DNA of 64,000 nucleotides, taken from NCBI RefSeq assembly GCF_002310495.1, contig NZ_CP023344.1:682001-746000 (forward strand). Direction: 5' to 3'. The DNA is from Nibricoccus aquaticus. Lineage in GTDB: Bacteria; Verrucomicrobiota; Verrucomicrobiia; Opitutales; Opitutaceae. The notes below the pieces were generated by a model. It searched no databases. It saw only the letters and a list, made by a program, of their open reading frames with translations, and was not told the DNA's origin. This document shows positions 3,892 to 15,806 of this stretch, one piece after another. How positions within the stretch are numbered: position 1 is the stretch's first letter; the number at the start of each line of letters is the position of its first letter. The position numbers and the translations under genes are program-made.

Positions 3892-5271
3892 TCACCCCGC
3901 ATCCAGCGGACTCCTCACCCCGATCCCCGGCTTCTTCATCACATGCAGGTAAAGCTGCGTCGTCTCCACACTCTGGTGACCAAGCAGCTCCTGCACCGTC
4001 CGTATGTCCGTCCCACCCTCCAGCAGATGCGTCGCAAAACTATGCCGCAGCACATGCGGCGTCACCCGCTTCGTCAGCCCTGCATCTACCCCCGCCTTGC
4101 GCACCGCGTTCTGAAACGTTCCCTCCTGCACATGATGCCTCCGGTACACACCCGTCTCCGGTGTGCGCATCAGCTCCCTTGACGGAAACAACCACTGCCA
4201 CGTCCACGATACTCCCGCCTTGGAATACTTCCGAGCCAGCCCCTCCGGCAGCCACACACCCGGCACCTTCGCCTTTCGGTCTTTCTCAAATAGCAACTCC
4301 AGCCTGCGCAAATGCCCGCCCAGCCTTTCGCTCAACGACTCAGGCAGCACCGTCACCCGGTCCTTGTTTCCCTTGCCCGCGTAAACCTTCAACTGGCTTC
4401 GCTCCAGATCCAGGTGATGAATACGCAGCCGCAACAGCTCCATCAGTCGTAATCCGGCCCCGTACATCAGCTCCGCCATCAGCCTCGGCGTATCGTTTAG
4501 CTGGTCAAAAACCCTCTGGCACTCCGCCCGGGTCAACACCGTGGGCACCGTCTGCCGGGTGCGCGCCCGCTTGAAATCGAACTGCCCCAGATCTCGCTTC
4601 AGCCCCTCCTGCAAAAAGAAAACCAGCGCGTTGAGCGCCTGTTTCTGAGTGGACGGACTCGCCCGCCGTTCGACCGCCAGCCCGGTCAAAAACGCGGCCA
4701 CATCATCGCCCGTCGCCGCATACGGAGAATGCCCATCCAACTGTGAACTAAACCTTGCCGCCCACATCCGGTACGTCTGCTCCGTCCGCCAAAGCACGCC
4801 CTTCCTACGCAACGCCACGATCAAATCGCGCTCCCAATCCGCACCGCCCAAATCCTCTCCCGCTTTAGGAGCGATTCCACTCCGTGCCGGGAGCGCCGGC
4901 GGCCCGCCGGCTTTTCCGCGACCAATCGCGTCCACCTGCACCCGTCGCGTAGGCGAAGATTCTACGCGGTCCGCTGCGCCCACCTTCTCCGACGTCTCCC
5001 GCGTCTGCGCTGCGCGGAAAAACCACCGCAGCGCCTCCCGCACCTTTTCGAGACGGCAATTTTCTTGTTTCTCGTAAGCCTCGATATACTCCTTCGCACG
5101 CATGATCGTCGCGGGCGCACGGACCGATTTACAATGGCGGAGAAACCCGAGTATCGCGCGCGTATACACCACACGCTCTCGCTCGGTCACCACCCGTTCC
5201 AGCGCGTCCCGCCAATCCGGAAACGACACAGCCGCGCTGTTGCGCCCACTTTTCCCGCCTTGCAAAGCCAT
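3892..5271 (-). CDS. intI: Integron integrase IntI (tyrosine recombinase) with N-terminal extension
   Basis: A tyrosine recombinase catalysing attI x attC and attC x attC recombination of gene cassettes. The catalytic residues are all present: R275 (GAGLR), K300, H406 and R409 (TPHVLRH), H432 (LLGH) and Y441 (QLYLH). The IntI-specific additional domain is visible at about 338-364 (GVWLPEGLARKYSKAGVSW). The protein ends in GVRSPLDAG, nearly the IntI1 C terminus. It is 459 residues long, against about 320-340 for typical IntI. The additional 120 or so residues comprise a helical N-terminal block (about 18-90) and a linker (about 100-145) before the usual core-binding domain. The gene is divergent from the array, as expected. 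The start ATG at 5271 is the first in frame and its Shine-Dalgarno site is weak. Confidence 0.95.
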   Translation of the reverse strand: MALQGGKSGRNSAAVSFPDWRDALERVVTERERVVYTRAILGFLRHCKSVRAPATIMRAKEYIEAYEKQENCRLEKVREALRWFFRAAQTRETSEKVGAADRVESSPTRRVQVDAIGRGKAGGPPALPARSGIAPKAGEDLGGADWERDLIVALRRKGVLWRTEQTYRMWAARFSSQLDGHSPYAATGDDVAAFLTGLAVERRASPSTQKQALNALVFFLQEGLKRDLGQFDFKRARTRQTVPTVLTRAECQRVFDQLNDTPRLMAELMYGAGLRLMELLRLRIHHLDLERSQLKVYAGKGNKDRVTVLPESLSERLGGHLRRLELLFEKDRKAKVPGVWLPEGLARKYSKAGVSWTWQWLFPSRELMRTPETGVYRRHHVQEGTFQNAVRKAGVDAGLTKRVTPHVLRHSFATHLLEGGTDIRTVQELLGHQSVETTQLYLHVMKKPGIGVRSPLDAG

Positions 5272-5277
5272 ACTCGC

Positions 5278-5421
5278 AGTTGAGCTTTGCTAGGCGACAT
5301 GAAGCAACCTCCTTTTCCTCAAAATCTCCCGAATCCCCTCAGCTAAAATTTGTTATGACGTCGCCTTTCCAATGCCCCGCCCCCTCCCATTCTCTCAACC
5401 CCATCCTGGCAAAGCTCAACT
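5278..5421. repeat. Inverted repeat bracketing the intI-attI intergenic region
   Basis: AGTTGAGCTTTGCTAGG at 5278-5294 and CCTGGCAAAGCTCAACT at 5405-5421 are reverse complements with 16 of 17 positions matching, separated by 110 bp. The right copy abuts the TCAACTGAGTTGA palindrome just before the first core site. It may be an integrase or regulator binding pair. Confidence 0.65.
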
Positions 5422-5448
5422 GAGTTGATGCCAATAACACTGTTCGGC
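5405..5448 (+). other. Candidate attI insertion site
   Basis: The first core site, GTTCGGC at 5442-5448, has no attC arm upstream and sits directly before the first cassette ORF, 171 bp from the integrase start codon. Upstream lie the palindrome TCAACTGAGTTGA and GATGCCAATAACACT, which could supply the L half of a simple attI core. The position defines it as attI; its outer limits are inferred. Confidence 0.7.
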
Positions 5449-5455
5449 AAAAGCG

Positions 5456-5863
5456 ATGAAGCCTATTCTTCTACTCCTAATCTTGCTGCTGGTTGGGGCT
5501 GGATGCGTTGGGCCGTTTAAGAAGAAGGCTGCTTGGTCGCCTGCGGAAGTTACAGAGTGGTACCAAGGCACCTCGATTCCTGCTACGATCCATCGCGGTA
5601 TTGGTTATCAGGGTACCGACGAGTCGTTTCACTACTTCATCGCGCGCCCGATCGACTTTTTCGTCTTCATCAAGATTCCCCGCGCACAGCTCCAAATCGA
5701 AGATGTTCAGCCGCGCCAGCAGTCGTCGTCCGCAGGTTTAGGCGTCTATTACTGGGTCGATCCGCTCCAAGGATTCAGAAAGAAAGAGCCGAACCAGCCA
5801 GTACAGCGCAACGCCTCGACGGGGTCCGTTTCGAATTTCGAGTCGCTAGCTCGGCGTGGCTGA
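5456..5863 (+). CDS. Cassette 1: small lipoprotein, unknown function
   Basis: A 135-residue product. The hydrophobic signal sequence ends in LVGAGC, a lipobox placing the mature protein on a membrane via Cys17. The mature part (about 18-110) has a WYQGT...IHRGIGYQG stretch and a FIARPIDFFVFIKIPR segment, and is not recognised. The last 24 or so residues (EPNQPVQRNASTGS and onward) are encoded by the attC, and the stop lies inside attC. The same cassette is repeated at 12496-12903. It is the first cassette, and therefore the one most likely to be expressed if a promoter lies in intI or attI. Confidence 0.8.
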   Translation: MKPILLLLILLLVGAGCVGPFKKKAAWSPAEVTEWYQGTSIPATIHRGIGYQGTDESFHYFIARPIDFFVFIKIPRAQLQIEDVQPRQQSSSAGLGVYYWVDPLQGFRKKEPNQPVQRNASTGSVSNFESLARRG

Positions 5864-5879
5864 CCAGAGAACGATGGGC
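5788..5879 (+). repeat. attC 1 (92 bp)
   Basis: R'' GCCGAAC; L'' CAGCGCAACGCC pairs with L' GGCGTGGCTG; closing core GATGGGC. It has rare variants (GCTAGC, GAGAAC) shared only with attC 17. R'' matches this cassette's own 5' core GTTCGGC. Confidence 0.9.
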
Positions 5880-5887
5880 GGAAGAGC

Positions 5888-6220
5888 ATGAGCATTGTAG
5901 CGGGAGATTTTCCGGAGGCTATCGCGAGATTCGTGGCGAAGAAGAAAGAGGCCGTCCGGCATTCACGGTGCTCGAAGAAAGCGCACGCGACGTTCGTCGC
6001 CACTGGCGAAGCGATGTCTCGAAAGAAAGTGGTCGTTCGGACTTCGGCGTTTTCCAGCGACAGCGTCTCGCTCATCGGCGCCGTTTCCGAAGCGCCCATC
6101 CAGGCGCTACAGACAACGCGCTGGAGCGGGGCCGTTTTTCTCACGCGCCTCCTCCGCTCAACCCTCAGCCGTTTCTCAAACAGCCTGCTGCGCGCTCGCC
6201 AGCGCGCGTCTGACCAGTGA
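5888..6220 (+). CDS. Cassette 2: possible small protein, weak coding evidence
   Basis: The only plausible rightward ORF starts MSIVAGDFPEAIARF after a GGAAGA motif. It gives about 68 residues before the attC and 42 more from attC-encoded sequence. The basic, Ser/Lys-rich product is not recognised. The same 350-bp cassette occurs three times (5874, 7284, 13978) with no visible change. A second open frame (LEESARDV) resembles cassette 24 (DESARAAT), so the true reading frame is unclear. The cassette may instead carry an RNA or promoter. Confidence 0.4.
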   Translation: MSIVAGDFPEAIARFVAKKKEAVRHSRCSKKAHATFVATGEAMSRKKVVVRTSAFSSDSVSLIGAVSEAPIQALQTTRWSGAVFLTRLLRSTLSRFSNSLLRARQRASDQ

Positions 6221-6229
6221 TCGTTAGGC
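6094..6229 (+). repeat. attC 2 (136 bp type)
   Basis: R'' GCCCATC complements the unusual core GATGGGC at this cassette's start. L'' CAGACAACGCGCTGG pairs with L' CCAGCGCGCGTCTG. Closing core GTTAGGC. Confidence 0.85.
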
Positions 6230-6239
6230 AAAGAAGCGC

Positions 6240-6716
6240 ATGGAAAAATATAGCTCACTCGTCGCTAAAATCGGTAGGAAAACTCGAGGTAAATTTGGGC
6301 CAGCCTCCACGTACCGAATCACGCAGCTCAAGAAGCTAAAGTTCCCAAGTGATGTTATTGAGTTTTATCGTCGATACGAGCCGGTGGACATAGTCGAAGG
6401 CTGCGTACGCTTGCTTCCTATCAAGATGATCGTCGCCGAAAACAAGGACTTGATTCCTGGATGCTATGCGTCTCGTAGAGGGTTTGTTGCTTTCGCTTCG
6501 ACGTTTGCTGGAGACGCGTACTGCTTCGATGCGGGCTCCAAGAGTAACCCTAGCCGGATTGTTTTGTTATCCCACGATGAGGTAGGCCCGCGAATGGCGC
6601 GGAAGACTTTGCTTAGGATCGCGGTGCCAGTGGCCACGGAATTGTCAGAGTTCTTGCAGTTGTTCTTAGATGATGCGCTGGATCAGCCGCCCCCAGGTGA
6701 AGGGCTCGAAGACTAG
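6240..6716 (+). CDS. Cassette 3: SMI1/KNR4 (SUKH) family protein
   Basis: A 158-residue protein with SUKH hallmarks: LKFPSDVIEFYRRYEPVDIV near residues 35-55, the turn into RLLPIKMI, RGFVAFASTFAGDAYCFD at about 80-98, and a conserved acidic HDEVG. Many SUKH proteins are immunity proteins that neutralise contact-dependent toxins; that role here is family knowledge, not shown by the sequence. No toxin gene accompanies it. The cassette is duplicated at 11354-11830. The stop precedes the attC, unlike the lipoprotein cassettes. Confidence 0.8.
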   Translation: MEKYSSLVAKIGRKTRGKFGPASTYRITQLKKLKFPSDVIEFYRRYEPVDIVEGCVRLLPIKMIVAENKDLIPGCYASRRGFVAFASTFAGDAYCFDAGSKSNPSRIVLLSHDEVGPRMARKTLLRIAVPVATELSEFLQLFLDDALDQPPPGEGLED

Positions 6717-6736
6717 CCATGCACAATGAAGACGGA

Positions 6737-6828
6737 GCCTAACAAGCCGCTACAGCGCAACGCCTCGACGGGGTCCGTTTCGAGTTTCAAGTCGCCAGCT
6801 CGGCGTGGCTGATCAGTGATCGTTAGCC
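6737..6828 (+). repeat. attC 3 (92 bp)
   Basis: R'' GCCTAAC complements the 5' core GTTAGGC. It carries variants AACAAGCC, TTTCAAG and TGATCAG that recur only in attC 15. Closing core GTTAGCC. Confidence 0.9.
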
Positions 6829-6832
6829 AAAA

Positions 6833-7273
6833 ATGAAGGTCTTTGCAGCCATACTTCTGCTCGCGATGTGCGTATGCTGCGGCTGTCAGTCCGAGAAGGC
6901 GCTTCCTCCCGCAGCATATTCCAGCACGACCATTCAGCATATCGCCACCCTTCGCCGCGGCGACACTCCTGAAGAGGTCGTTCGAAAGCTCGGGGCGCCA
7001 GCATCGGTCGCCGTAGTTCTTCCTTGGCTGATGTATTACGCCCAAGAAAAAGAAGGCTTTTATTATCGTGTGACCTTCACACTCAGAGACGCACGAAAGC
7101 TGAATCCCGAAGATACCATCGAGCAAGTCACGTTGACATCGGGAATCGTGGACGGGCCTGAACCCGTTGTTGTGTGGCCAACGTCGAAGAAGAAAGAGGC
7201 TAACCAGCCGCTACAGCGCAACGCCTCGACGAGGCCCATTTCAAATTTCGAGTCGCCAGCTCGGCGTGGCTGA
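6833..7273 (+). CDS. Cassette 4: BamE/OmlA-like small lipoprotein
   Basis: A 146-residue product. The signal sequence MKVFAAILLLAMCVCCGC ends in a cysteine-rich lipobox. The following IATLRRGDTPEEVVRKLGAP resembles the SmpA/OmlA/BamE motif in which a short helix follows the anchor. A beta segment (YYRVTFTLRDARKL, then IEQVTLTSG) comes next. About 24 C-terminal residues derive from attC. It is probably anchored to a membrane. An identical cassette lies at 8083-8523. A BamE-like fold is inferred from the motif only. Confidence 0.7.
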   Translation: MKVFAAILLLAMCVCCGCQSEKALPPAAYSSTTIQHIATLRRGDTPEEVVRKLGAPASVAVVLPWLMYYAQEKEGFYYRVTFTLRDARKLNPEDTIEQVTLTSGIVDGPEPVVVWPTSKKKEANQPLQRNASTRPISNFESPARRG

Positions 7274-7289
7274 CCAGTGATCGATGGGC
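7198..7289 (+). repeat. attC 4 (92 bp)
   Basis: R'' GGCTAAC complements this cassette's 5' core GTTAGCC. Closing core GATGGGC, which begins cassette 5. Confidence 0.9.
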
Positions 7290-7297
7290 GGAAGAGC

Positions 7298-7630
7298 ATG
7301 AGCATTGTAGCGGGAGATTTTCCGGAGGCTATCGCGAGATTCGTGGCGAAGAAGAAAGAGGCCGTCCGGCATTCACGGTGCTCGAAGAAAGCGCACGCGA
7401 CGTTCGTCGCCACTGGCGAAGCGATGTCTCGAAAGAAAGTGGTCGTTCGGACTTCGGCGTTTTCCAGCGACAGCGTCTCGCTCATCGGCGCCGTTTCCGA
7501 AGCGCCCATCCAGGCGCTACAGACAACGCGCTGGAGCGGGGCCGTTTTTCTCACGCGCCTCCTCCGCTCAACCCTCAGCCGTTTCTCAAACAGCCTGCTG
7601 CGCGCTCGCCAGCGCGCGTCTGACCAGTGA
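7298..7630 (+). CDS. Cassette 5: second copy of the cassette 2 ORF
   Basis: Same 350-bp cassette as at 5874-6223, down to the attC arms; only the upstream and downstream neighbours differ. The predicted 110-residue product starts MSIVAGDFPEAIARF and is not recognised. A GTG at 7277 in the preceding attC would extend the frame but lies outside the cassette, so the internal ATG is preferred. Coding status is uncertain. Confidence 0.4.
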   Translation: MSIVAGDFPEAIARFVAKKKEAVRHSRCSKKAHATFVATGEAMSRKKVVVRTSAFSSDSVSLIGAVSEAPIQALQTTRWSGAVFLTRLLRSTLSRFSNSLLRARQRASDQ

Positions 7631-7639
7631 TCGTTCGGC
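7504..7639 (+). repeat. attC 5 (136 bp type)
   Basis: R'' GCCCATC matching core GATGGGC; same arms as attC 2 and 20. Closing core GTTCGGC. Confidence 0.85.
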
Positions 7640-7647
7640 AAAAGAAG

Positions 7648-7938
7648 ATGATCGCCATCGAAGTATCCTGTAACGGCGCGAAAGTTGTGCTCGCCGGCTC
7701 GGAGGCCCTTGAAGGCGGAATGATTGGTGCGAGTGTCGACGTGCCCGATACATGCGAGGACAAGGTACTCCTCACGGTTTTCGGCGTTACGAAGTATGTA
7801 GAGGGAGAGCAGCAGCGAGTTCTTTATTGGAAGGAGCGGATGCCGTTTTCAGTTGGAGACGAGATTCGAATCAGGGCTATTCCCTCCTCGGTAGCCGATC
7901 CTCACGAGAGCGAAAGCGATCCTCTAACTGAAGAATGA
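7648..7938 (+). CDS. Cassette 6: hypothetical protein
   Basis: A 96-residue acidic protein starting MIAIEVSCNGAKVVLAG, with an ATG just after the core and an AAAGAAG motif. The pattern of short hydrophobic strands (VLLTVFGVTKYV, QRVLYWKERMPF, DEIRIRAI) suggests a small beta-rich soluble domain. The acidic tail HESESDPLTEE ends before the attC. No signal peptide or membrane segment and no recognised family. Confidence 0.7.
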   Translation: MIAIEVSCNGAKVVLAGSEALEGGMIGASVDVPDTCEDKVLLTVFGVTKYVEGEQQRVLYWKERMPFSVGDEIRIRAIPSSVADPHESESDPLTEE

Positions 7939-7942
7939 AAGA

Positions 7943-8078
7943 GCCGAACCAGCCGGTACAGACAACGCGCTTAAGCGGGGCTGTTCTTCTCGAGTGCCCA
8001 GTCCGCTCAACCTTCAACCGTGGCTCGAAGAGCAGAGACTGCGCTCGCCAGCGCGCGTCTGACCAGAGATCGTTAGCC
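7943..8078 (+). repeat. attC 6 (136 bp type, divergent)
   Basis: R'' GCCGAAC complements core GTTCGGC. The arms are of the long type, but the central loop differs from attC 2 and resembles attC 24 (CGCTTAAGCGGGGCTGTT). Closing core GTTAGCC. Confidence 0.85.
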
Positions 8079-8082
8079 AAAA

Positions 8083-8523
8083 ATGAAGGTCTTTGCAGCC
8101 ATACTTCTGCTCGCGATGTGCGTATGCTGCGGCTGTCAGTCCGAGAAGGCGCTTCCTCCCGCAGCATATTCCAGCACGACCATTCAGCATATCGCCACCC
8201 TTCGCCGCGGCGACACTCCTGAAGAGGTCGTTCGAAAGCTCGGGGCGCCAGCATCGGTCGCCGTAGTTCTTCCTTGGCTGATGTATTACGCCCAAGAAAA
8301 AGAAGGCTTTTATTATCGTGTGACCTTCACACTCAGAGACGCACGAAAGCTGAATCCCGAAGATACCATCGAGCAAGTCACGTTGACATCGGGAATCGTG
8401 GACGGGCCTGAACCCGTTGTTGTGTGGCCAACGTCGAAGAAGAAAGAGGCTAACCAGCCGCTACAGCGCAACGCCTCGACGAGGCCCATTTCAAATTTCG
8501 AGTCGCCAGCTCGGCGTGGCTGA
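8083..8523 (+). CDS. Cassette 7: BamE/OmlA-like lipoprotein, copy of cassette 4
   Basis: The translated product equals that of cassette 4 (6833-7273) in all 146 residues, and the 461-bp cassette length is the same. It has the same lipobox (CVCCGC), RRGDTPEEVVRKLGAP motif and attC-encoded tail. It is separated from its twin by cassettes 5 and 6, so it arose by movement of a single cassette rather than by tandem slippage. Confidence 0.7.
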   Translation: MKVFAAILLLAMCVCCGCQSEKALPPAAYSSTTIQHIATLRRGDTPEEVVRKLGAPASVAVVLPWLMYYAQEKEGFYYRVTFTLRDARKLNPEDTIEQVTLTSGIVDGPEPVVVWPTSKKKEANQPLQRNASTRPISNFESPARRG

Positions 8524-8539
8524 CCAGTGATCGTTCGGC
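8448..8539 (+). repeat. attC 7 (92 bp)
   Basis: R'' GGCTAAC complements core GTTAGCC; same internal variants as attC 4 (GAGGCCCATTTC). Closing core GTTCGGC. Confidence 0.9.
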
Positions 8540-8544
8540 AAAGC

Positions 8545-8850
8545 ATGAATGACTGGCCGCCACTTTCCGACTTTCCGGCGACGATTGGCCGACTTGCTAC
8601 CGCTGAAGATACGCGCGCGAATCGCGCCTCATTCCTTCTGGAAGTGAATGGTGAGCGCATCGGCTCTCCTATCGAGATGCCGCTTCCCTGCTACGCTAGG
8701 TTCATAGACCACGAATCTGGAGACCGTCAGCGTTGCGTGCTATTCCAAGCGGAAGAAGCAGACGGAAAGCGCTACTTCGGTGGCTGGCTCTTGGAAGAGA
8801 AGCGCCAAATTGTGGGTTTAGACACTGACTTCGAGATTGTCGCCAAATGA
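8545..8850 (+). CDS. Cassette 8: hypothetical protein
   Basis: A 101-residue soluble protein beginning MNDWPPLSDFPATIGRL and ending DTDFEIVAK just before the attC. Alternating strands (SFLLEVNGERIG, RCVLFQAEEADGKRYFGGWLL) suggest a small beta domain. It has no signal peptide and no recognised family. The ATG at 8545 lies 6 nt after the core site. Confidence 0.7.
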   Translation: MNDWPPLSDFPATIGRLATAEDTRANRASFLLEVNGERIGSPIEMPLPCYARFIDHESGDRQRCVLFQAEEADGKRYFGGWLLEEKRQIVGLDTDFEIVAK

Positions 8851-8857
8851 AGAAAAA

Positions 8858-8949
8858 GCCGAACCAGCCGTTACAGCGCAACGCCTCGACGGGGCTCGTT
8901 TCGAATTTCCAGTCGCCAGCTCGGCGTGGCTGACCAGTGATCGTTCGGC
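8858..8949 (+). repeat. attC 8 (92 bp)
   Basis: R'' GCCGAAC and closing core GTTCGGC; standard arms. Confidence 0.9.
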
Positions 8950-8954
8950 AAAAG

Positions 8955-9356
8955 ATGAAGCTCGCGATGTTCACTCTGGCGCTTCTGGCAGTCGCAACCT
9001 CGGCGTTTTTTGCAAAGATGGCGTGGGCTGATTATCGACGTTTCCGACTCTTGCGGGCGAGAGGTGTGCGAGCGAAGGGCCATATCATCGGCCAGGCCCC
9101 TCGACGGATTGGAGAAGCGCCGCTGCCGGTCGTGCGGTTTGAAGATTCGTCAGGTGCGACCCGAGAGTTTCATTCGCGTTTCCCGCGACGCACGCGCGGT
9201 TTTATCCATCCCGAAGAGGTCGATGTGATTTATCACGGCGATGCGGCAGAGATCGCGACTGCTAGCTATGCGAGGCGCTGGATAGGCGGCACGTTCGCAT
9301 TCGCGGTCGCTTGCACGGTAATCGGATGTCTGTTCGCGTTACTTTCGCTGCGATGA
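8955..9356 (+). CDS. Cassette 9: DUF3592 family membrane protein
   Basis: A 133-residue protein with two transmembrane segments (about 4-24 and 110-130) flanking a soluble domain. The domain has the DUF3592 layout: RARGVRAKGHIIG, then PVVRFEDSSGATREFHS, then EEVDVIYHGDA. The family consists of small membrane proteins of unknown function. The start ATG follows an AAAG spacer after the core, and the stop precedes the attC. Confidence 0.75.
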   Translation: MKLAMFTLALLAVATSAFFAKMAWADYRRFRLLRARGVRAKGHIIGQAPRRIGEAPLPVVRFEDSSGATREFHSRFPRRTRGFIHPEEVDVIYHGDAAEIATASYARRWIGGTFAFAVACTVIGCLFALLSLR

Positions 9357-9363
9357 AGAAAGA

Positions 9364-9455
9364 GCCGAACCAGCCGCTACAGCGCAACGCCTCGACGGAG
9401 TCCGCTTCGAGTTTCGAGTCGCCAGCTCGGCGTGGCTGACCAGTGATCGTTCGGC
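9364..9455 (+). repeat. attC 9 (92 bp)
   Basis: R'' GCCGAAC and closing core GTTCGGC; loop variants GGAGTCCGCTTCGAG. Confidence 0.9.
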
Positions 9456-9463
9456 AAAGAAAG

Positions 9464-9706
9464 ATGAAGCAGCTCTCTGACGAAGAAATTGCCGGTCGTT
9501 TAGTCTCCATCATTAGCGACGGCTTTAATCGGTCTATGAGCGCTCTCGAAAAGGCTGGCGCGATAGACACGAAGAAGATGAGAGCGCAGTACCGCGGCGT
9601 CGGTAGTAAGTACTACGACATCGTTACCGAGCAGATTGAGCTATCAGCCAAGTACGCGGCTCCTGGCTTGAAGCAGCTTTTCCAGCACGATGAAGAAAAA
9701 GCCTAA
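9464..9706 (+). CDS. Cassette 10: hypothetical protein
   Basis: An 80-residue, predicted helical protein (MKQLSDEEIAGRLVSIIS ... KYAAPGLKQLFQHDEEKA) without signal or membrane segment. It is not recognised. Its TAA stop lies within the R'' site (GCCTAAC), so the gene ends exactly at the attC. This cassette is the single exception to core/R'' matching in the array. Confidence 0.65.
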   Translation: MKQLSDEEIAGRLVSIISDGFNRSMSALEKAGAIDTKKMRAQYRGVGSKYYDIVTEQIELSAKYAAPGLKQLFQHDEEKA

Positions 9707-9792
9707 CCAGCCGCTACAGCGCAACGCCTCGACGGGGTCCGTTTCGAATTTCGGGTCGCCAGCTCGGCGTGGCTGACCAGTGATCGTTCGGC
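9701..9792 (+). repeat. attC 10 (92 bp), mismatched R''
   Basis: R'' is GCCTAAC, whereas the cassette's 5' core is GTTCGGC (expected GCCGAAC). It is the only cassette of 24 with a mismatch. Closing core GTTCGGC. Confidence 0.9.
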
Positions 9793-9801
9793 AAAAGAAA
9801 G

Positions 9802-10116
9802 ATGATCTCCAAGTCGCCACTTAAAGCAGCGCTTGTGACCTTCGGCCTGACTGTCGCGGTGGTGTTGGCATTTTGGGCACTAGAGCTTCTCGTCCTGTTT
9901 CTGTTTTTCAGGAATTCAGACGAGGCATCGTGGGGAGTAGTTCTCTACGGTTTTTTCTTCGCCGTCGTTGCTTTGCCTATCGGTGTACTTCTTTCCATCG
10001 GCACCTTCATGAAAGTTAAGATTCAGAATCCAAAAGCAGAGCCGAACCAGCCGCTACAGCGCAACGCCTCGACGGGGTCCGTTTCGATTTTCCAGTCGCC
10101 AGCTCGGCGTGGCTGA
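9802..10116 (+). CDS. Cassette 11: two-helix membrane protein
   Basis: A 104-residue product with two strong hydrophobic segments (about 9-34 and 45-68) joined by a short loop FRNSDEASWG, then a basic exit (KVKIQNPK). Residues from about 81 on are the attC-encoded tail (EPNQPLQRNASTGSVSIF and onward). Unknown function. It resembles the small integral membrane proteins that are common cassette cargo. Confidence 0.65.
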   Translation: MISKSPLKAALVTFGLTVAVVLAFWALELLVLFLFFRNSDEASWGVVLYGFFFAVVALPIGVLLSIGTFMKVKIQNPKAEPNQPLQRNASTGSVSIFQSPARRG

Positions 10117-10132
10117 CCAGTGATCGTTGGGC
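10041..10132 (+). repeat. attC 11 (92 bp)
   Basis: R'' GCCGAAC matches core GTTCGGC. Closing core GTTGGGC. Confidence 0.9.
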
Positions 10133-10136
10133 GAAG

Positions 10137-10439
10137 ATGACTCCCGAAAAAGAACGCGAACTCCAGTTGCGCGCTGCTGCTCAAATCGCGCTTCTTGGCG
10201 AGACGCCGCTTTCGCTTCGCAGCTTATCTTTCCGCCATGCGGATCGAGCGATTTGGTTTAAGGCGATTTTGGCGACGGACGCGACGGACCAAGATAAGGA
10301 AGACGTCACTTGTGTAGCGACCGAGGTTCTCGCGGCATTTGATGACGGTCGATGGTCTTGGAATGAAGAGATCGTTGTCTCCGATGACGACTTGAGAGGC
10401 GCTGAGTTCGAAGTGATCACTTACCGCAGAAAAGAATGA
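10137..10439 (+). CDS. Cassette 12: hypothetical protein
   Basis: A 100-residue acidic soluble protein. A helix-rich start (MTPEKERELQLRAAAQIALLG) is followed by SLRSLSFRHADRAIWFKAIL and an acidic stretch DATDQDKEDVTCVATEVLAAF; it ends FEVITYRRKE. The arrangement suggests an alpha/beta domain. No family is recognised with confidence, and the stop precedes attC. Confidence 0.7.
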   Translation: MTPEKERELQLRAAAQIALLGETPLSLRSLSFRHADRAIWFKAILATDATDQDKEDVTCVATEVLAAFDDGRWSWNEEIVVSDDDLRGAEFEVITYRRKE

Positions 10440-10445
10440 AGAAGA

Positions 10446-10537
10446 GCCCAACCAGCCGCTACAGCGCAACGCCTCGACGGGGTCCGTTTCGAATTTCGAG
10501 TCGCCAGCTCGGCGTGGCTGACCAGTGATCGTTCGGC
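10446..10537 (+). repeat. attC 12 (92 bp)
   Basis: R'' GCCCAAC complements core GTTGGGC. Closing core GTTCGGC. Confidence 0.9.
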
Positions 10538-10543
10538 GGAAGA

Positions 10544-10855
10544 ATGAGCGAAAGTATTCACACACCGAAGAGCGTCTGGGCGGCATTCGCCTGCATGTTC
10601 ATCGCCATGGCGGTCGGTGTGCTGGGCTGGTTCCGCATGTTGGCGATGTCGGGCGACTTTCAGCCGATCGCATTCTTCTTCGTCTGCTTGAGTGCGAGCG
10701 CGATACTTACTCTCGCCGCTATCGGTGGCACTTTCTACGGAGCGCGACGCAGACCTCGTTCGGTACCGACAATAGCAGCCATGTATTTAGCTGGTGCATC
10801 CGGAATCACTATGGTCGCTATAGCCATTTGGATTCTGCTGAGTTTTTCATCGTGA
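10544..10855 (+). CDS. Cassette 13: small three-helix membrane protein
   Basis: A 103-residue protein (MSESIHTPKSVWAAF) with three hydrophobic segments at about 10-32, 41-64 and 76-100. A basic loop GARRRPRSV lies between the second and third. The start follows GGCGGAAGA. A longer overlapping ORF (10525-10944) in another frame begins in the previous attC and is rejected. Function unknown. Confidence 0.65.
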   Translation: MSESIHTPKSVWAAFACMFIAMAVGVLGWFRMLAMSGDFQPIAFFFVCLSASAILTLAAIGGTFYGARRRPRSVPTIAAMYLAGASGITMVAIAIWILLSFSS

Positions 10856-10868
10856 ACCGAACCCAAGA

Positions 10869-10960
10869 GCCGAACCAGCCGTTACAGCGCAACGCCTCGA
10901 CGGGGTCCGTTTCGAATTTCCGGTCGCCAGCTCGGCGTGGCTGACCAGTGATCGTTCGGC
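10869..10960 (+). repeat. attC 13 (92 bp)
   Basis: R'' GCCGAAC and closing core GTTCGGC; standard arms. Confidence 0.9.
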
Positions 10961-10968
10961 AAAAGAAG

Positions 10969-11238
10969 ATGGCCGCTGAAGCAATAGCCCAAGTTGTTCT
11001 CGAGGTCGTAGCGTACCCGATTTTCTACGTCATCGGTTTTATTGTCGTTAAGATCTTGTCGCTTGGGCGCGCTAGGATCTTGGCGCTGACTGATCGAGGC
11101 TACGAAAAGGAAATGCGTTGGTATCAGTTTTTCGTCCGCCGTTCTGGCATTCGATTCTGGACTCCGGAAAGCATCATCCTCGTCGGCGGTCTTTTCACGC
11201 TATGTGCCGGTGTTGGCGCTTATCTAATCCTATCCTAA
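10969..11238 (+). CDS. Cassette 14: small membrane protein
   Basis: An 89-residue product starting MAAEAIAQVVLEVVAYP. It has hydrophobic segments at about 6-31 and 68-88, with a basic amphipathic middle (TDRGYEKEMRWYQFFVRRSG). It ends in LILS before the attC. No recognised family. Confidence 0.65.
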   Translation: MAAEAIAQVVLEVVAYPIFYVIGFIVVKILSLGRARILALTDRGYEKEMRWYQFFVRRSGIRFWTPESIILVGGLFTLCAGVGAYLILS

Positions 11239-11251
11239 GTATGAAAGAAGA

Positions 11252-11343
11252 GCCGAACCAGCCGCTACAGCGCAACGCCTCGACGGGGCCCGTTTCGAAT
11301 TTCGAGTCGCCAGCTCGGCGTGGCTGACCAGTGATCGTTAGGC
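11252..11343 (+). repeat. attC 14 (92 bp)
   Basis: R'' GCCGAAC and standard arms. Closing core GTTAGGC. Confidence 0.9.
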
Positions 11344-11353
11344 AAAGAAGCGC

Positions 11354-11830
11354 ATGGAAAAATATAGCTCACTCGTCGCTAAAATCGGTAGGAAAACTCG
11401 AGGTAAATTTGGGCCAGCCTCCACGTACCGAATCACGCAGCTCAAGAAGCTAAAGTTCCCAAGTGATGTTATTGAGTTTTATCGTCGATACGAGCCGGTG
11501 GACATAGTCGAAGGCTGCGTACGCTTGCTTCCTATCAAGATGATCGTCGCCGAAAACAAGGACTTGATTCCTGGATGCTATGCGTCTCGTAGAGGGTTTG
11601 TTGCTTTCGCTTCGACGTTTGCTGGAGACGCGTACTGCTTCGATGCGGGCTCCAAGAGTAACCCTAGCCGGATTGTTTTGTTATCCCACGATGAGGTAGG
11701 CCCGCGAATGGCGCGGAAGACTTTGCTTAGGATCGCGGTGCCAGTGGCCACGGAATTGTCAGAGTTCTTGCAGTTGTTCTTAGATGATGCGCTGGATCAG
11801 CCGCCCCCAGGTGAAGGGCTCGAAGACTAG
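11354..11830 (+). CDS. Cassette 15: SMI1/KNR4 (SUKH) protein, copy of cassette 3
   Basis: The 158-residue translation equals that at 6240-6716, and the 599-bp cassette including its distinctive attC is repeated. See cassette 3 for the SUKH motifs. The two copies are 5.1 kb apart and have different neighbours, and the lack of visible divergence points to recent duplication or conversion. Confidence 0.8.
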   Translation: MEKYSSLVAKIGRKTRGKFGPASTYRITQLKKLKFPSDVIEFYRRYEPVDIVEGCVRLLPIKMIVAENKDLIPGCYASRRGFVAFASTFAGDAYCFDAGSKSNPSRIVLLSHDEVGPRMARKTLLRIAVPVATELSEFLQLFLDDALDQPPPGEGLED

Positions 11831-11850
11831 CCATGCACAATGAAGACGGA

Positions 11851-11942
11851 GCCTAACAAGCCGCTACAGCGCAACGCCTCGACGGGGTCCGTTTCGAGTT
11901 TCAAGTCGCCAGCTCGGCGTGGCTGATCAGTGATCGTTGGGC
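11851..11942 (+). repeat. attC 15 (92 bp)
   Basis: R'' GCCTAAC complements core GTTAGGC; shares the rare variants of attC 3. Closing core GTTGGGC. Confidence 0.9.
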
Positions 11943-11949
11943 AAAGACA

Positions 11950-12390
11950 ATGAGCGAGGCGGACTCTAAGGCGGTTATCTGGTTATCTGAGACACATCCT
12001 ACGTCCGGCCGGATTATCGTGTTGGAGGACGACGGTCGTAGCTGTTGGCTATACTTCCGCGACAGTTGTCCGGACGGTGCGACAAGGTCAGTGATTGTTT
12101 ATTCTCCGATCGCTCCCGTGAGTCGTTCAGAGTTCCAAGCCAAAGTAGGACGTGGCGATACGCCGATTCTGATGGCCGACTATGCCTCGAGCCATGCGGT
12201 GATCACGGAAAGATACCCTGACGATTTTTCTTTCGTCTGGCGCGAGGATGGCGATGCCGCCGCAGTACGTTATCGCGACGAGATTATCGCTGTCGTTTCC
12301 GTCGACGAGGAGCATGGCAGTTCACGCGCAATTTCCCGCTCAGGTCCGTTTGGTGACCCATTGCAGTTAGCTCGCTACCCGTGGTTATGA
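11950..12390 (+). CDS. Cassette 16: hypothetical protein
   Basis: A 146-residue acidic soluble protein. The pattern (SGRIIVLEDDGRSCWLYF, RSVIVYSPIAP, ILMADYASSHAVITERYP, then FSFVWREDGDAAAVRYRDE) suggests an antiparallel beta-rich domain. The ...EDDGRSCWLYF start resembles some cassette-encoded immunity-like proteins, but no family is claimed. The stop lies before attC and there is no signal peptide. Confidence 0.7.
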   Translation: MSEADSKAVIWLSETHPTSGRIIVLEDDGRSCWLYFRDSCPDGATRSVIVYSPIAPVSRSEFQAKVGRGDTPILMADYASSHAVITERYPDDFSFVWREDGDAAAVRYRDEIIAVVSVDEEHGSSRAISRSGPFGDPLQLARYPWL

Positions 12391-12396
12391 AAGAAA

Positions 12397-12488
12397 GCCC
12401 AACCAGCCGCTACAGCGCAACGCCTCGACGGGGTCCGTTTCAAATTTCGAGTCGCCAGCTCGGCGTGGCTGACCAGTGATCGTTCGGC
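12397..12488 (+). repeat. attC 16 (92 bp)
   Basis: R'' GCCCAAC complements core GTTGGGC. Closing core GTTCGGC. Confidence 0.9.
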
Positions 12489-12495
12489 AAAAGCG

Positions 12496-12903
12496 ATGAA
12501 GCCTATTCTTCTACTCCTAATCTTGCTGCTGGTTGGGGCTGGATGCGTTGGGCCGTTTAAGAAGAAGGCTGCTTGGTCGCCTGCGGAAGTTACAGAGTGG
12601 TACCAAGGCACCTCGATTCCTGCTACGATCCATCGCGGTATTGGTTATCAGGGTACCGACGAGTCGTTTCACTACTTCATCGCGCGCCCGATCGACTTTT
12701 TCGTCTTCATCAAGATTCCCCGCGCACAGCTCCAAATCGAAGATGTTCAGCCGCGCCAGCAGTCGTCGTCCGCAGGTTTAGGCGTCTATTACTGGGTCGA
12801 TCCGCTCCAAGGATTCAGAAAGAAAGAGCCGAACCAGCCAGTACAGCGCAACGCCTCGACGGGGTCCGTTTCGAATTTCGAGTCGCTAGCTCGGCGTGGC
12901 TGA
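12496..12903 (+). CDS. Cassette 17: lipoprotein, copy of cassette 1
   Basis: The 135-residue lipoprotein equals that of cassette 1, with the LVGAGC lipobox and attC-encoded tail. The 431-bp cassette matches 5443-5873, including the rare GCTAGC and GAGAAC attC variants. It lies 7 kb downstream of its twin; one copy sits at attI and the other deep in the array. Confidence 0.8.
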   Translation: MKPILLLLILLLVGAGCVGPFKKKAAWSPAEVTEWYQGTSIPATIHRGIGYQGTDESFHYFIARPIDFFVFIKIPRAQLQIEDVQPRQQSSSAGLGVYYWVDPLQGFRKKEPNQPVQRNASTGSVSNFESLARRG

Positions 12904-12919
12904 CCAGAGAACGTTCGCC
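12828..12919 (+). repeat. attC 17 (92 bp)
   Basis: R'' GCCGAAC; same rare variants as attC 1. Closing core GTTCGCC. Confidence 0.9.
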
Positions 12920-12928
12920 GAAGCCGCC

Positions 12929-13432
12929 ATGACCCTAGACGAGTTTTGGACCCTAATAGAACAAACCAAGGATGCCTCCGCTGATATCGACGAGCGCACT
13001 GAAGTTCTGCGCGCGAAACTATCGCGACTATCCACGGAAGACGTCGCGGCCTTTGATCGGCGTTTCACGGAAACCTTAGATCGAGCGTATTCGCACGATT
13101 TGTGGGGAGCCGCCTACATCATCCAAGGCGGTTGCAGCGATGACGCCTTCTGGGACTTCAGAAGCGTTTTGATATCCATGGGAAAGGATGCGTTTGAGCG
13201 GGCCATCCGCGATCCCGACAGCTTAGCGAGCTTATCAGCCGAGGACCTCGATGAGCTTTATGCCGAGGGATTCCAGTATGTAGCAGGAAGCATCTATGAA
13301 GAGCGGACGGGCGTGCTCCTCGAGCGATCGCATCCTCATCCGCCAAAGCCCGTCGGAGAGAAGCGCAGCGATGATCCCGACGAGTTACGGAAGCGCTGGC
13401 CCAAATTGTTTGCGAAGCACTGGGAAGAATGA
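12929..13432 (+). CDS. Cassette 18: DUF4240 family protein
   Basis: A 167-residue protein with the DUF4240 pattern: MTLDEFWTLIEQTK at the N terminus, then a helix ending LSTEDVAAFDRRFTE, then the conserved YSHDLWGAAYIIQGGCSDD, FWDFRSVLISMGKDAFE and ...DPDSLASL. DUF4240 proteins are of unknown function and are often found near toxin-immunity loci. The ATG at 12929 is chosen because upstream codons belong to the previous attC. Confidence 0.85.
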   Translation: MTLDEFWTLIEQTKDASADIDERTEVLRAKLSRLSTEDVAAFDRRFTETLDRAYSHDLWGAAYIIQGGCSDDAFWDFRSVLISMGKDAFERAIRDPDSLASLSAEDLDELYAEGFQYVAGSIYEERTGVLLERSHPHPPKPVGEKRSDDPDELRKRWPKLFAKHWEE

Positions 13433-13433
13433 G

Positions 13434-13525
13434 GGCGAACCAGCCGTTACAGCGCAACGCCTCGACGGAGCCCGTTTCGAATTTCGAGTCGCCAGCTCGG
13501 CGTGGCTGACCAGTGATCGTTGGGC
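13434..13525 (+). repeat. attC 18 (92 bp)
   Basis: R'' GGCGAAC complements core GTTCGCC. Closing core GTTGGGC. Confidence 0.9.
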
Positions 13526-13533
13526 AGAAGACC

Positions 13534-13884
13534 ATGGCGGAAAAGCGATACAAGTTGGCGAAGGAGCAAATCAAGCCGTTGGCCGTCGGCCACGGTGCTT
13601 GCATTGCAAGCGATCACATCGTCGTCGACGGCAAGAAAGTTGGTTTCATGTATCGCGAGTCTCCGTCGAATACGGTCGATAGCGGATGGCGCTTCTTTTC
13701 AGGCGAAGAAGACCAAGCATACGTCGATCAGCCGGAGCACCTCGCTTTCTACGACATCAATACGGTCGCGAACTATGATCCCGCGATAATCCTGCATCTC
13801 GGCGCCGCTATCGGCACGCAGTTAGGCCGTGTAGAGGGCACCGATAGATTCGTTCAGGAGAAATTTACGCCTCCCGAAGAATGA
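13534..13884 (+). CDS. Cassette 19: DUF2185 (Imm33-like) protein
   Basis: A 116-residue protein with the DUF2185 signature: GACIASDHIVVDGKKVGFMY at about 21-40, then DSGWRFFSGEEDQAYVDQP, then FYDINTVANYDPAIILHL and a GTQLGRVEGT end. Related proteins are classed as predicted immunity proteins; the role is taken from the family, and no cognate toxin is seen here. Start ATG after GGGCAGAAGACC. Confidence 0.85.
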   Translation: MAEKRYKLAKEQIKPLAVGHGACIASDHIVVDGKKVGFMYRESPSNTVDSGWRFFSGEEDQAYVDQPEHLAFYDINTVANYDPAIILHLGAAIGTQLGRVEGTDRFVQEKFTPPEE

Positions 13885-13891
13885 AAACGGA

Positions 13892-13983
13892 GCCCAACCA
13901 GCCGCTACAGCGCAACGCCTCGACGGGGTCCGTTTCAAATTTCGAGTCGCCAGCTCGGCGTGGCTGATCAGTGATCGATGGGC
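13892..13983 (+). repeat. attC 19 (92 bp)
   Basis: R'' GCCCAAC complements core GTTGGGC. Closing core GATGGGC, which begins cassette 20. Confidence 0.9.
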
Positions 13984-13991
13984 GGAAGAGC

Positions 13992-14324
13992 ATGAGCATT
14001 GTAGCGGGAGATTTTCCGGAGGCTATCGCGAGATTCGTGGCGAAGAAGAAAGAGGCCGTCCGGCATTCACGGTGCTCGAAGAAAGCGCACGCGACGTTCG
14101 TCGCCACTGGCGAAGCGATGTCTCGAAAGAAAGTGGTCGTTCGGACTTCGGCGTTTTCCAGCGACAGCGTCTCGCTCATCGGCGCCGTTTCCGAAGCGCC
14201 CATCCAGGCGCTACAGACAACGCGCTGGAGCGGGGCCGTTTTTCTCACGCGCCTCCTCCGCTCAACCCTCAGCCGTTTCTCAAACAGCCTGCTGCGCGCT
14301 CGCCAGCGCGCGTCTGACCAGTGA
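13992..14324 (+). CDS. Cassette 20: third copy of the cassette 2 ORF
   Basis: Third occurrence of the 350-bp GATGGGC-core cassette, predicted product again starting MSIVAGDFPEAIARF. No nucleotide change relative to the copies at 5874 and 7284 was noticed by eye. Coding status is as uncertain as for the other copies. Confidence 0.4.
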   Translation: MSIVAGDFPEAIARFVAKKKEAVRHSRCSKKAHATFVATGEAMSRKKVVVRTSAFSSDSVSLIGAVSEAPIQALQTTRWSGAVFLTRLLRSTLSRFSNSLLRARQRASDQ

Positions 14325-14333
14325 TCGTTCGGC
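14198..14333 (+). repeat. attC 20 (136 bp type)
   Basis: R'' GCCCATC matching core GATGGGC; same arms as attC 2 and 5. Closing core GTTCGGC. Confidence 0.85.
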
Positions 14334-14338
14334 AAAGG

Positions 14339-14689
14339 ATGAAGTCCTCGCTCCGCAAGAATCGTTCGGTCTCTGGGCCCGCTAAGTCGCCAGAGGAGAA
14401 GAATCGAAATTCAGCGAGACGCTGGAGTATTGGCCTCTTGTGCGCTGGCTTACTCGGCATCGCCAGCCCGCTTGTTTCCAGTCGACCAATGAGCGAGTGG
14501 CGCGGGACCAGTGCGAATAGGGCCGGCCCGTCTACAGGCTGGTTTCAGCTAGGCTTAGGAGCGCTTTTCCTTTTCATGTCCGCGTCTTGTTATCGGATCT
14601 CCAAGAAGAAAGAGCCGAACCAGCCGGTACAGCCAACGCCGGGAACGGGGCCTGTTTCGAATTTCGAGTCGCCAGCCCGGCGTGGCTGA
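14339..14689 (+). CDS. Cassette 21: two-helix membrane protein
   Basis: A 116-residue product. The basic N terminus (MKSSLRKNRSVSGPAKS) is followed by hydrophobic segments at about 30-47 and 66-84 (LGLGALFLFMSASCY). The last 24 residues or so come from the attC, in this case with a PTPGTGPV variant instead of RNASTGSV. Unknown function. Confidence 0.6.
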   Translation: MKSSLRKNRSVSGPAKSPEEKNRNSARRWSIGLLCAGLLGIASPLVSSRPMSEWRGTSANRAGPSTGWFQLGLGALFLFMSASCYRISKKKEPNQPVQPTPGTGPVSNFESPARRG

Positions 14690-14705
14690 ACAGTGATCGT
14701 TCGCC
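14614..14705 (+). repeat. attC 21 (92 bp, variant)
   Basis: R'' GCCGAAC. The L'' arm reads CAGCCAACGCCGGG and the right arm CCCGGCGTGGCTG, a compensatory change keeping the stem. Closing core GTTCGCC. Confidence 0.9.
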
Positions 14706-14711
14706 GAAAGC

Positions 14712-15125
14712 ATGCCTTTCATCCACAAGCAGATTAGTCGAGAGCACGCCGAGAGCGAGATGACCCAGCTAGTGCAGAACAATGTACCGGCTAAGATTCG
14801 CTATCTGCGGGGTCCGGTTTTCTCCAGACCTATGTATGGAGTTTGGGTAGAAGAGGAAGATCTTCAGGACGCGCTGAGGGTCCTGGATATGGTTGAGGTC
14901 GTGCCCGACTCGGAGCCTGAGCCGCCTTACGAGACCATTCTAGCCTGTCCCCGCTGTGAAAAGAGGCGTGTCGAATGCCCCGACGATAACCCGCCACGTT
15001 GGCTGTTCTTCGTGTCAGTGTTTTTGCTGATGATCCCGAAGATGATCTGGTTTTTCTGCAGAAGCATGAAGGGATCCAAGAAGAGGTGCGGCTACTGCGG
15101 GAATGAGTGGAGGAGCAAACCATGA
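14712..15125 (+). CDS. Cassette 22: DUF2007-like protein with zinc ribbon and membrane segment
   Basis: A 137-residue protein. The N-terminal part (about 10-65) has the pattern of signal-transducer DUF2007: a helix, IRYLRGPVFSRPMYGVWVEE, then EDLQDALRVL. A zinc-ribbon-like pair of cysteine motifs follows (CPRCEKRRVEC near 79 and CGYCGNEW near 126). They are split by a hydrophobic segment (WLFFVSVFLLMIPKMIWFF, about 96-114). It is probably membrane-attached. The family assignment rests on pattern only. Confidence 0.65.
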   Translation: MPFIHKQISREHAESEMTQLVQNNVPAKIRYLRGPVFSRPMYGVWVEEEDLQDALRVLDMVEVVPDSEPEPPYETILACPRCEKRRVECPDDNPPRWLFFVSVFLLMIPKMIWFFCRSMKGSKKRCGYCGNEWRSKP

Positions 15126-15135
15126 GACCCCAAAG

Positions 15136-15227
15136 GGCGAACCAGCCGTTACAGCGCAACGCCTCGACGGGGCCCATTTCGAATTTCCAGTCGCCAGCTC
15201 GGCGTGGCTGACCAGTGTTCGTTCGGC
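15136..15227 (+). repeat. attC 22 (92 bp)
   Basis: R'' GGCGAAC complements core GTTCGCC. Closing core GTTCGGC. Confidence 0.9.
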
Positions 15228-15240
15228 AGAAGATGACGGC

Positions 15241-15801
15241 ATGAAGAAGCGGAGGATCATAATGGCAGTCACTGCGTTGGCTGTGGTTTGTGTCTGCGCC
15301 TTTGCCTGGAAGTGGAACGCTCCAGACTGGGCTTTCGTCAGACAGGTCACCGGATTTCATTTTCCGACGGGAACGAAGTATCTTGCGCAATTCGATAACG
15401 CCGAATGGTTCGTCGTCTCTGTGGTGGAATTGCCCAGCGGACAGATTCCGGCGTTTGCGAACGCACATAGGTTTAGTCTAGGCGACCCGAAAAGCATCGA
15501 TACGGCACGCTCGCTCCCTCCGAAGTATCGCAGCATCCCCGTTCGTCCCGATATCCTCACAGCGGATGCGCAAACTGAGTATCAGTCTTGGACTGCGATT
15601 CTAGATCCTCAAACGCGACTGCTGTGGATTCAGATCATATATCCTGATTGGTCGGGTGACCACTCAGGTACCGCGCCCCAGCCCAGACAGAAGAAAGAGC
15701 CGAACCAGACGCTACAGCCAACGCCTACGTCTGTCACGCCTCGTGCTGACGCACGAGTCGCGCCAAGCAACGCCGTGCCTCATCTCAAACGTTCGGCGTA
15801 A
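15241..15801 (+). CDS. Cassette 23: membrane-anchored or secreted hypothetical protein
   Basis: A 186-residue product: MKKRRIIMAVTALAVVCVCAF is an N-terminal signal or anchor. An extracytoplasmic domain follows (about 25-150; YLAQFDNAEWFVVSVVELP, then YQSWTAILDPQTRLLWIQII). The last 33 or so residues come from attC-like sequence. An ATG at 15233 gives only three codons, so 15241 is used. No recognised family. Confidence 0.65.
   Translation: MKKRRIIMAVTALAVVCVCAFAWKWNAPDWAFVRQVTGFHFPTGTKYLAQFDNAEWFVVSVVELPSGQIPAFANAHRFSLGDPKSIDTARSLPPKYRSIPVRPDILTADAQTEYQSWTAILDPQTRLLWIQIIYPDWSGDHSGTAPQPRQKKEPNQTLQPTPTSVTPRADARVAPSNAVPHLKRSA
15699..15797 (+). repeat. attC 23 (99 bp, atypical)
   Basis: The left half is standard (GCCGAAC, then CAGACGCTACAGCCAACGCC). 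The right half (GTGCCTCATCTCAAAC before GTTCGGC) lacks the matching L' arm. An internal CTCGTGCTGACGCACGAG hairpin is present. It may be a hybrid or weakened site. Confidence 0.65.
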
Positions 15802-15806
15802 GATTT

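Follow-up and report, generated by a model that had tools for sequence, protein, structure and literature searches.

An integron integrase of Nibricoccus aquaticus with a predicted second SAM-like domain N-terminal to its core-binding domain

Plain integron integrases (IntIs) are ~320–340 aa long and work on attC without an extra domain. The intI gene considered here lies in a 64,000-nucleotide stretch of the Nibricoccus aquaticus genome (the window), and its product has 459 residues. A sequence-only reading of this DNA had proposed that the recombinase carries an extra N-terminal domain of ~120 residues, which raises the questions of whether the additional residues are genuine coding sequence, what they fold into, and what they could do at the integron. 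The extra part proved a bit longer than proposed: ~143–152 residues (about 145) precede the part matching known integron integrases, and this front end is made up of a ~14-residue N-tip, a domain (about residues 15–98), and a ~45-residue linker. Coordinates of the features in the window are collected in Table 1.

The body of IntI is apparently that of an ordinary integron integrase

For classification of IntI outside the extension, a combination of profile matching, structural comparison and residue conservation was used. The integron integrase profile TIGR02249 scored 357.5 bits against IntI (curated cut-off 265), with only residues 154–458 aligned. Helices of the core-binding domain were placed by AlphaFold2 at residues 145–156, 161–176, 188–200, and 206–223. 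The top structural relative of the full-length model in Foldseek was the Vibrio integron integrase (VchIntIA, 2a3v; E 1e-26), which aligns to model residues 143–443; a VIA structural alignment of the two gave a Z of 27.2 over 301 residues (rmsd 7.5). R275, K300, H406, R409, H432, and Y441, which we take to be the catalytic R-K-H-R-H-Y residues of a tyrosine recombinase, were invariant across 27 sequences (own IntI counted). IntI could thus be placed in TIGR02249 by a score over the cut-off, the presence of these six residues, and the attC-like array adjoining the gene. Because the profile, 2a3v, the invariant residues, and the array all fit, IntI minus its extension appears to be an ordinary and intact integron integrase, of predicted activity, with ~145 residues extra.

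No Shine–Dalgarno-like sequence was seen at the usual spacing from the intI ATG (positions 5272–5320); a GGAGG 36 nt before this ATG precedes an out-of-frame ATG, perhaps that of a small upstream reading frame. A promoter and terminator scan of positions 5200–5500 found nothing.

Table 1. Features of the intI locus in the window (strand relative to the window; residues are those of IntI)
Feature	Position	Strand	Basis or remark
intI, integron integrase with N-terminal extension	3892..5271	-	459 aa, ATG start
Catalytic domain, residues 245–446	3934..4539	-	PF00589 match (245–446); best structural match VchIntIA 2a3v
Canonical core-binding (SAM-like) domain, residues 145–235	4567..4839	-	PF13495 match (153–229) and AlphaFold2 helices
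Flexible linker, residues 99–142	4846..4977	-	Low pLDDT and alignment
Dispersed palindromic repeat copy in linker-coding DNA, in frame	4889..4911	.	Genome pattern scan and BLAST copies
Extra N-terminal SAM-like domain (predicted), residues 15–98	4978..5229	-	Alignment, hhalign, AlphaFold2, dN/dS, Pfam
Third, partial repeat copy within first intI codons	5258..5268	-	Leader repeat analysis
Inverted accessory repeat copy (putative), just 5' of intI start codon	5277..5294	+	Other arm of the 18-nt inverted repeat
Accessory repeat copy (putative) adjoining attI	5405..5422	-	18-nt inverted-repeat arm, 94% complementary
Palindrome adjoining attI (TCAACTGAGTTGA)	5416..5428	.	Shuffle p 0.03, own locus
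Putative attI core, GCCGAACAGTGTTATTGGC on intI strand	5430..5448	-	Motif common to 29 loci
Cassette array, attC-core-like repeats	5792..16001	+	24 of 25 matches on + strand

The N-terminal extension is conserved in close relatives

A search with IntI of 95 whole genomes (own and 94 relatives) gave matches at E ≤ 1e-30 in 32 of them, the own genome among these, and many of the matches start at IntI residues 1–15. To examine sharing of the extension by homologues, 33 sequences whose match starts no later than residue 20 were picked, the own IntI and near-duplicates among them, and residues 15–91 aligned across the set with 2% gaps. Mean information in this set was 2.17 bits for residues 15–91, 2.88 for the core-binding domain, and 3.22 for the catalytic domain. 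The domain is kept in relatives at 40–60% identity, W20, L24, and W83 are invariant in 27 extended sequences (own counted), and the "MA(L/F)" at the chosen ATG was seen again in loci L002, L033, L034, L046, and L047. A wrongly extended intI start is very unlikely, since residues 15–91 align and the two tryptophans and L24 do not vary. The contrary pattern, in which homologues start at about residue 145 and the DNA upstream is unconserved, was not seen among close relatives; more distant IntIs lacking the extra domain are common.

Substitution rates were then compared by domain. For the extra domain, dN/dS was 0.10–0.69 with a median of 0.20 (computable in 13 of 14 pairs) and below 0.4 in 12 of the 13, where several pairs are saturated at synonymous sites and the top value reflects very few changes. 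Corresponding values were 0.08–0.24 for the core-binding domain (12 pairs) and 0.25–5.3 for the linker (12 of 14 pairs). Catalytic-domain values of 0.60 and 0.66 came from both pairs involving L050, whose gene is broken, and one of 1.37 from L008/L048, resting on very few changes. By these rates, the extra domain is mostly under purifying selection. It is also the fastest-changing folded part of IntI: mean identity among 20 clade members was 33%, against 59% and 67% for the other two domains.

The extra domain resembles the core-binding domain

The helical block had been likened to a second SAM-like or DNA-binding domain, a likeness that is backed by hhalign, by Pfam on homologues, and by AlphaFold2. 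With hhalign, the extension profile paired with IntI's own core-binding domain (probability 75.8%, E 2.3e-5, 67 columns), placing R78 of the extension opposite K210, and gave no pairing with the catalytic domain. In some plain IntIs, the one core-binding domain present was also matched by the extension HMM (L100, E 2.9e-6; L074, E 1.1e-5). Among 29 homologous extension segments searched against Pfam, 8 matched PF13495 (best 2.9e-5) and 4 matched PF02899; the segment of the N. aquaticus IntI itself had no Pfam match. AlphaFold2, run on an 18-sequence alignment, predicted four helices in the extension (residues 20–27, 30–49, 56–69, and 74–98), in the same order as the four of the core-binding domain, with a pLDDT of 83–93 by 10-residue block over residues 21–90. 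The pTM of this model was 0.56, and placement of the domains relative to each other is therefore not to be trusted.

A single-sequence model of the extension alone (residues 9–104) was poor (pLDDT 52) and for that reason was not taken into a fold search. Fold searches used the full IntI model and covered mainly residues 143–449, so that the absence of PDB hits to the extension among their results is without meaning. Two candidates were rejected. A PDB profile search for a solved relative of the extension returned 19 sequences at E 0.083–4.6, mostly ferritins, which were taken for chance matches, and a lambda-type arm-binding fold was ruled out on the all-helical AlphaFold2 prediction.

Several basic residues of the domain are strongly conserved in the 33 sequences (R33, 79%; K48, 94%; K60, 94%; R78, 97%; R82, 76%), and the mean net charge of 115 extra domains was +3.2 (sd 3.9). 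The near-invariant basic residues are consistent with DNA binding by the extra domain. Taken as profile and model evidence, these results support a conserved second SAM-like (core-binding-type) domain tethered N-terminal to the core-binding domain of IntI.

As for the tether, the description of the intervening segment as a proline-rich linker was right as to the linker and only partly so as to its composition (5 prolines in the 51 residues 92–142). Residues 97–133 have pLDDT below 50 and are predicted to be disordered, and in the 33 sequences the positions corresponding to residues 91 and 143 are separated by anything from 18 to 97 aa. The palindromic repeat carried in frame by the linker-coding DNA is dispersed in the genome, with 8 copies at ≤ 2 mismatches (linker copy counted) and 0 for the reversed pattern. 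In two loci (L033, 1589–3553; L034, 3001–4914), the linker is ~200 aa or longer and contains degenerate DGTDGTD-like repeats.

Distribution of the extra domain across the phylum

To follow the domain across the phylum, 387 genomes were scanned; the extension profile matched 38 and TIGR02249 matched 123. A profile iterated over all fetched loci was then applied. Of the 227 distinct IntIs among 254 matched loci, 149 had 40 or more aa upstream, and 115 of these carried the domain. Nine of the 34 IntIs that gave no match have at least 70 upstream residues. Shuffled upstream sequences never matched the extension profile (0/745).

By source, the domain was present in 46 of 57 loci from relatives, a rate biased upwards by a group partly fetched using the extension itself; in 9/15 loci from a scan of genome contigs; and in 59 of 89 distinct IntI loci of the phylum sample, which consists of the 30 best-scoring and 60 hand-picked loci minus one duplicate and so gives no random-sample rate. 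It was present in 1 of 66 distinct IntI relatives on viral contigs, and a tblastn search of plasmids and phages with one divergent example as query gave no match. One carrier (L040) is labelled uncultured proteobacterium. The two-domain layout is common in the phylum and not unique to the N. aquaticus genome.

A FastTree tree of the shared IntI part was built from 201 rows, 112 with the extra domain and 89 without, leaving out rows that were shorter than 270 aa, at contig edges, or had at least 70 upstream residues and no match. Presence and absence changed 13 times on this tree, with well-supported (starred) branches forcing at least 5 changes; in the clade of the N. aquaticus IntI, 58 of 62 rows have the domain. 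Gain or loss of the domain has thus occurred repeatedly, and an IntI can persist without it.

Several loci depart from the usual arrangement. In L158 (1498–2834) and L161 (1755–461), the extra domain is in another frame than the remainder of IntI, as after a frameshift, with the IntI part open; L016 and L158 are one gene fetched twice. In L143, the extension domain occurs in a 158-aa ORF (1740–1483) and is either a remnant or a free-standing copy, since neither a core-binding nor a catalytic domain was found anywhere in this 3.2-kb locus. A second intI in the N. aquaticus genome (L052, 3396–4812; C1:4624395–4625811) is without the extension, starts in the middle of the core-binding domain, and lies directly 3' of a separate short tyrosine recombinase ORF.

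The attI region, leader repeats and cassette array

In 29 loci, a count that takes in the own locus and near-duplicates, the sequence CAGTGTTATT or a close variant was found at a distance of 126–387 nt ahead of the intI start used. This motif, which resembles GCCBAACAGTGTTATTNG on the intI strand and lies upstream of intI, was read as the attI core. Across the 29 loci, the palindrome on the attI side had a mean score of 4.66 against 3.61 for shuffled sequence, and p was ≤ 0.05 individually in 7/29; in the N. aquaticus locus it is overlapped by the repeat arm at 5405–5422.

Matches resembling attC cores with ≤ 2 mismatches numbered 26 in the window, against 0.64 expected, and 25 of them are within the array; the one at 14530 has the opposite orientation to the others there. 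The array repeats some of its cassettes, the 158-aa ORFs at 6240 and 11354 being alike by eye, as are the 146-aa ORFs at 6833 and 8083.

Leader repeats in the clade of the N. aquaticus IntI consist of a shared GCTTT-type half, used here as an anchor, and a variable half. They were examined in 20 leaders (own counted, six near-duplicate loci dropped), with positions set by script-picked intI starts. Sites with GCTTT or a close variant occurred at 13.0 per kb in leaders and 2.4 per kb in intI coding sequence, a difference of which part may be due to unmatched base composition. The six letters before the anchor were alike in at least 5 of 6 positions in 13 of 39 within-locus pairs, compared with 73 of 1087 between-locus pairs, and none of 5000 permutations gave so high a within-locus excess. 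At least one matching within-locus pair was found in 9 of the 20 loci. By orientation, matches numbered 9 of 19 opposite pairs and 4 of 20 same-direction pairs, the latter with a permutation p of 0.045 by loci. These repeats resemble accessory sites, with a specificity that shifts from one locus to the next.

The same count elsewhere gave 1 of 54 within-locus pairs in other extended loci (78 loci), 0/42 in 99 non-extended loci, and 0/8 in intI coding windows; the zero for non-extended loci is partly one of choice, because the anchor was taken from the repeats of the N. aquaticus clade. Leader repeats of any kind reached p ≤ 0.05 in 15/29 extended loci with the attI motif, 18/73 other extended loci, 9/37 non-extended genome loci, and 9/60 non-extended viral-contig loci. 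Neither the pair counts nor these repeat tests bore out a general link between the extension and leader repeats beyond the clade of the N. aquaticus IntI.

Similarity of the site words, which were picked by eye, was also compared with that of the protein domains in the 20 loci. The raw correlation was higher for the catalytic domain (0.374) than for the extra domain (0.213), and a partial Mantel test of site-word against extra-domain similarity, given catalytic similarity, showed no association in these 20 loci and their eye-picked words (r 0.059, p 0.28). RNA folding of the N. aquaticus intI leader was unremarkable (z −1.44), with the start codon within a predicted local hairpin. A long-range RNA stem was rejected, the minimum-energy fold leaving the two distant arms unpaired.

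Proposed function and alternatives

Phage integrases such as lambda Int have an N-terminal arm-binding domain, and attI1 has direct-repeat-bound protomers. The reading that we favour, tentatively, is that the second SAM-like domain is an accessory, arm-like DNA-binding module acting at attI. It would probably bind outside the two core boxes of attI, at the repeat copies next to attI and ahead of the intI start codon, in a role comparable to that of a phage arm-binding domain or of the repeat-bound protomers of attI1. Such binding could raise the affinity of the integrase for its own attI and help in building or orienting the synapse between attI and attC; it might also repress intI. An arm-like mechanism is proposed because the variable half of the leader repeat matches within a locus and differs between loci; and since the repeats vary by locus and no folded part of IntI changes faster than the extra domain, it may be this domain that reads them. 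Against the arm model stand the low partial correlation (r 0.059, p 0.28) and the 1/54 matching pairs in other extended loci. The sequence-only reading had suggested changed attC recognition or dimerisation; the leader DNA hints, rather, at accessory sites beside attI.

One alternative, which we consider unlikely, is that the extra domain helps to recognise folded single-stranded attC, as a hairpin or extrahelical-base clamp, and that the leader repeats are unrelated to it. Its homology to a domain that grips core sites would suit this role, as would the long array with 25 attC-core-like matches at 5792–16001. However, IntIs that have the domain are mixed on the tree with others that lack it (13 changes), and plain IntIs of ~320–340 aa handle attC without it.

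We give about the same small weight to a protein–protein module, serving protomer contacts or autoinhibition, with the leader repeats as an intI operator or a start-codon RNA hairpin. Because most matching leader-repeat pairs are inverted, an RNA hairpin is a possible reading of them, and many such pairs lie near the start codon, which itself falls inside a predicted local hairpin of a gene lacking a Shine–Dalgarno-like sequence at the usual spacing; the invariant tryptophans of the extra domain could likewise serve protein contacts. The leader RNA, however, folds as usual (z −1.44), direct pairs also match (4/20, permutation p 0.045 by loci), and the domain has several near-invariant basic residues.

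That the domain is a functionless leftover of a fusion or duplication seems improbable: two genes (L016/L158 and L161) with the domain and an open IntI part in different frames, and the many IntIs without it, would agree with this, but dN/dS is below 0.4 in 12 of 13 pairs, the domain is retained in 58 of 62 rows of the clade, and its core is invariant. A true start near residue 145, with the upstream frame open by chance in GC-rich DNA, is barely credible: GC is high and frames are open upstream of some domain-less IntIs (e.g. L170, L192), but alignment, hhalign, invariant residues, AlphaFold2, and dN/dS are all opposed and 0 of 745 shuffled upstream sequences match the extension profile, so that a wrong start codon or chance ORF was ruled out on conservation, hhalign, shuffles, and dN/dS.

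Comparison with known systems and implications

With the integron integrases described before (TIGR02249; VchIntIA, 2a3v; IntI1), the N. aquaticus protein has in common the core-binding and catalytic domains, the catalytic residues, an attC-like cassette array, and an attI-like core adjoining the gene; it differs in ~145 more N-terminal residues and a predicted second SAM-like domain. As in lambda Int, an extra N-terminal domain precedes the core-binding domain and there are possible accessory sites beside the core site. The arm-binding domain of lambda Int is mostly beta, whereas the extension here is predicted to be all-helical and SAM-like, and its arm sites are putative. XerA/XerD-type tyrosine recombinases (PF13495/PF02899) have one SAM-like domain each; the extension resembles that domain, so that IntI would have two in tandem.

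Longer IntIs were already remarked in 2008 for a deltaproteobacterial clade. The IntIs of this clade 15 were described as a gene fusion, on average ~120 aa longer and maybe from functional genes (Nemergut et al. 2008, PMC2426708); the available text of that paper gives no domain identity, structure, or sites, and the likeness drawn here is one of length. The literature also speaks of an "additional domain" of IntI, a term that in the text available refers to the surroundings of the patch III motif and not to an extension of the present kind (PMC9668308). A domain such as that found here is not described in the available text of PMC3414803, PMC9668308, PMC3108266, or PMC8371274, and no description of it or its function was found in the open-access literature among the matches listed. 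As far as this open-access literature shows, an IntI with a second SAM-like domain is previously undescribed.

A broader version of the arm-like reading, which we put forward with more doubt, would have two core-binding-type domains in a large class of integrases phylum-wide, one for the core sites of attI and attC and a fast-evolving second one for locus-specific arm sites at attI; each integron's attI would then be private and its use of attC universal. Specificity for attI would in that case be built into the integron and evolve with it, possibly together with self-repression. Much of integron biology has been worked out on short integrases that have a single core-binding domain (IntI1, VchIntIA). 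Should a common type of integrase in a large environmental phylum have a second DNA-binding module, the textbook rules for attI recognition, for cassette insertion, and for host specificity may fail there. The leader repeats offer concrete candidate sites for the question of how an integrase distinguishes its own attI from that of another integron.
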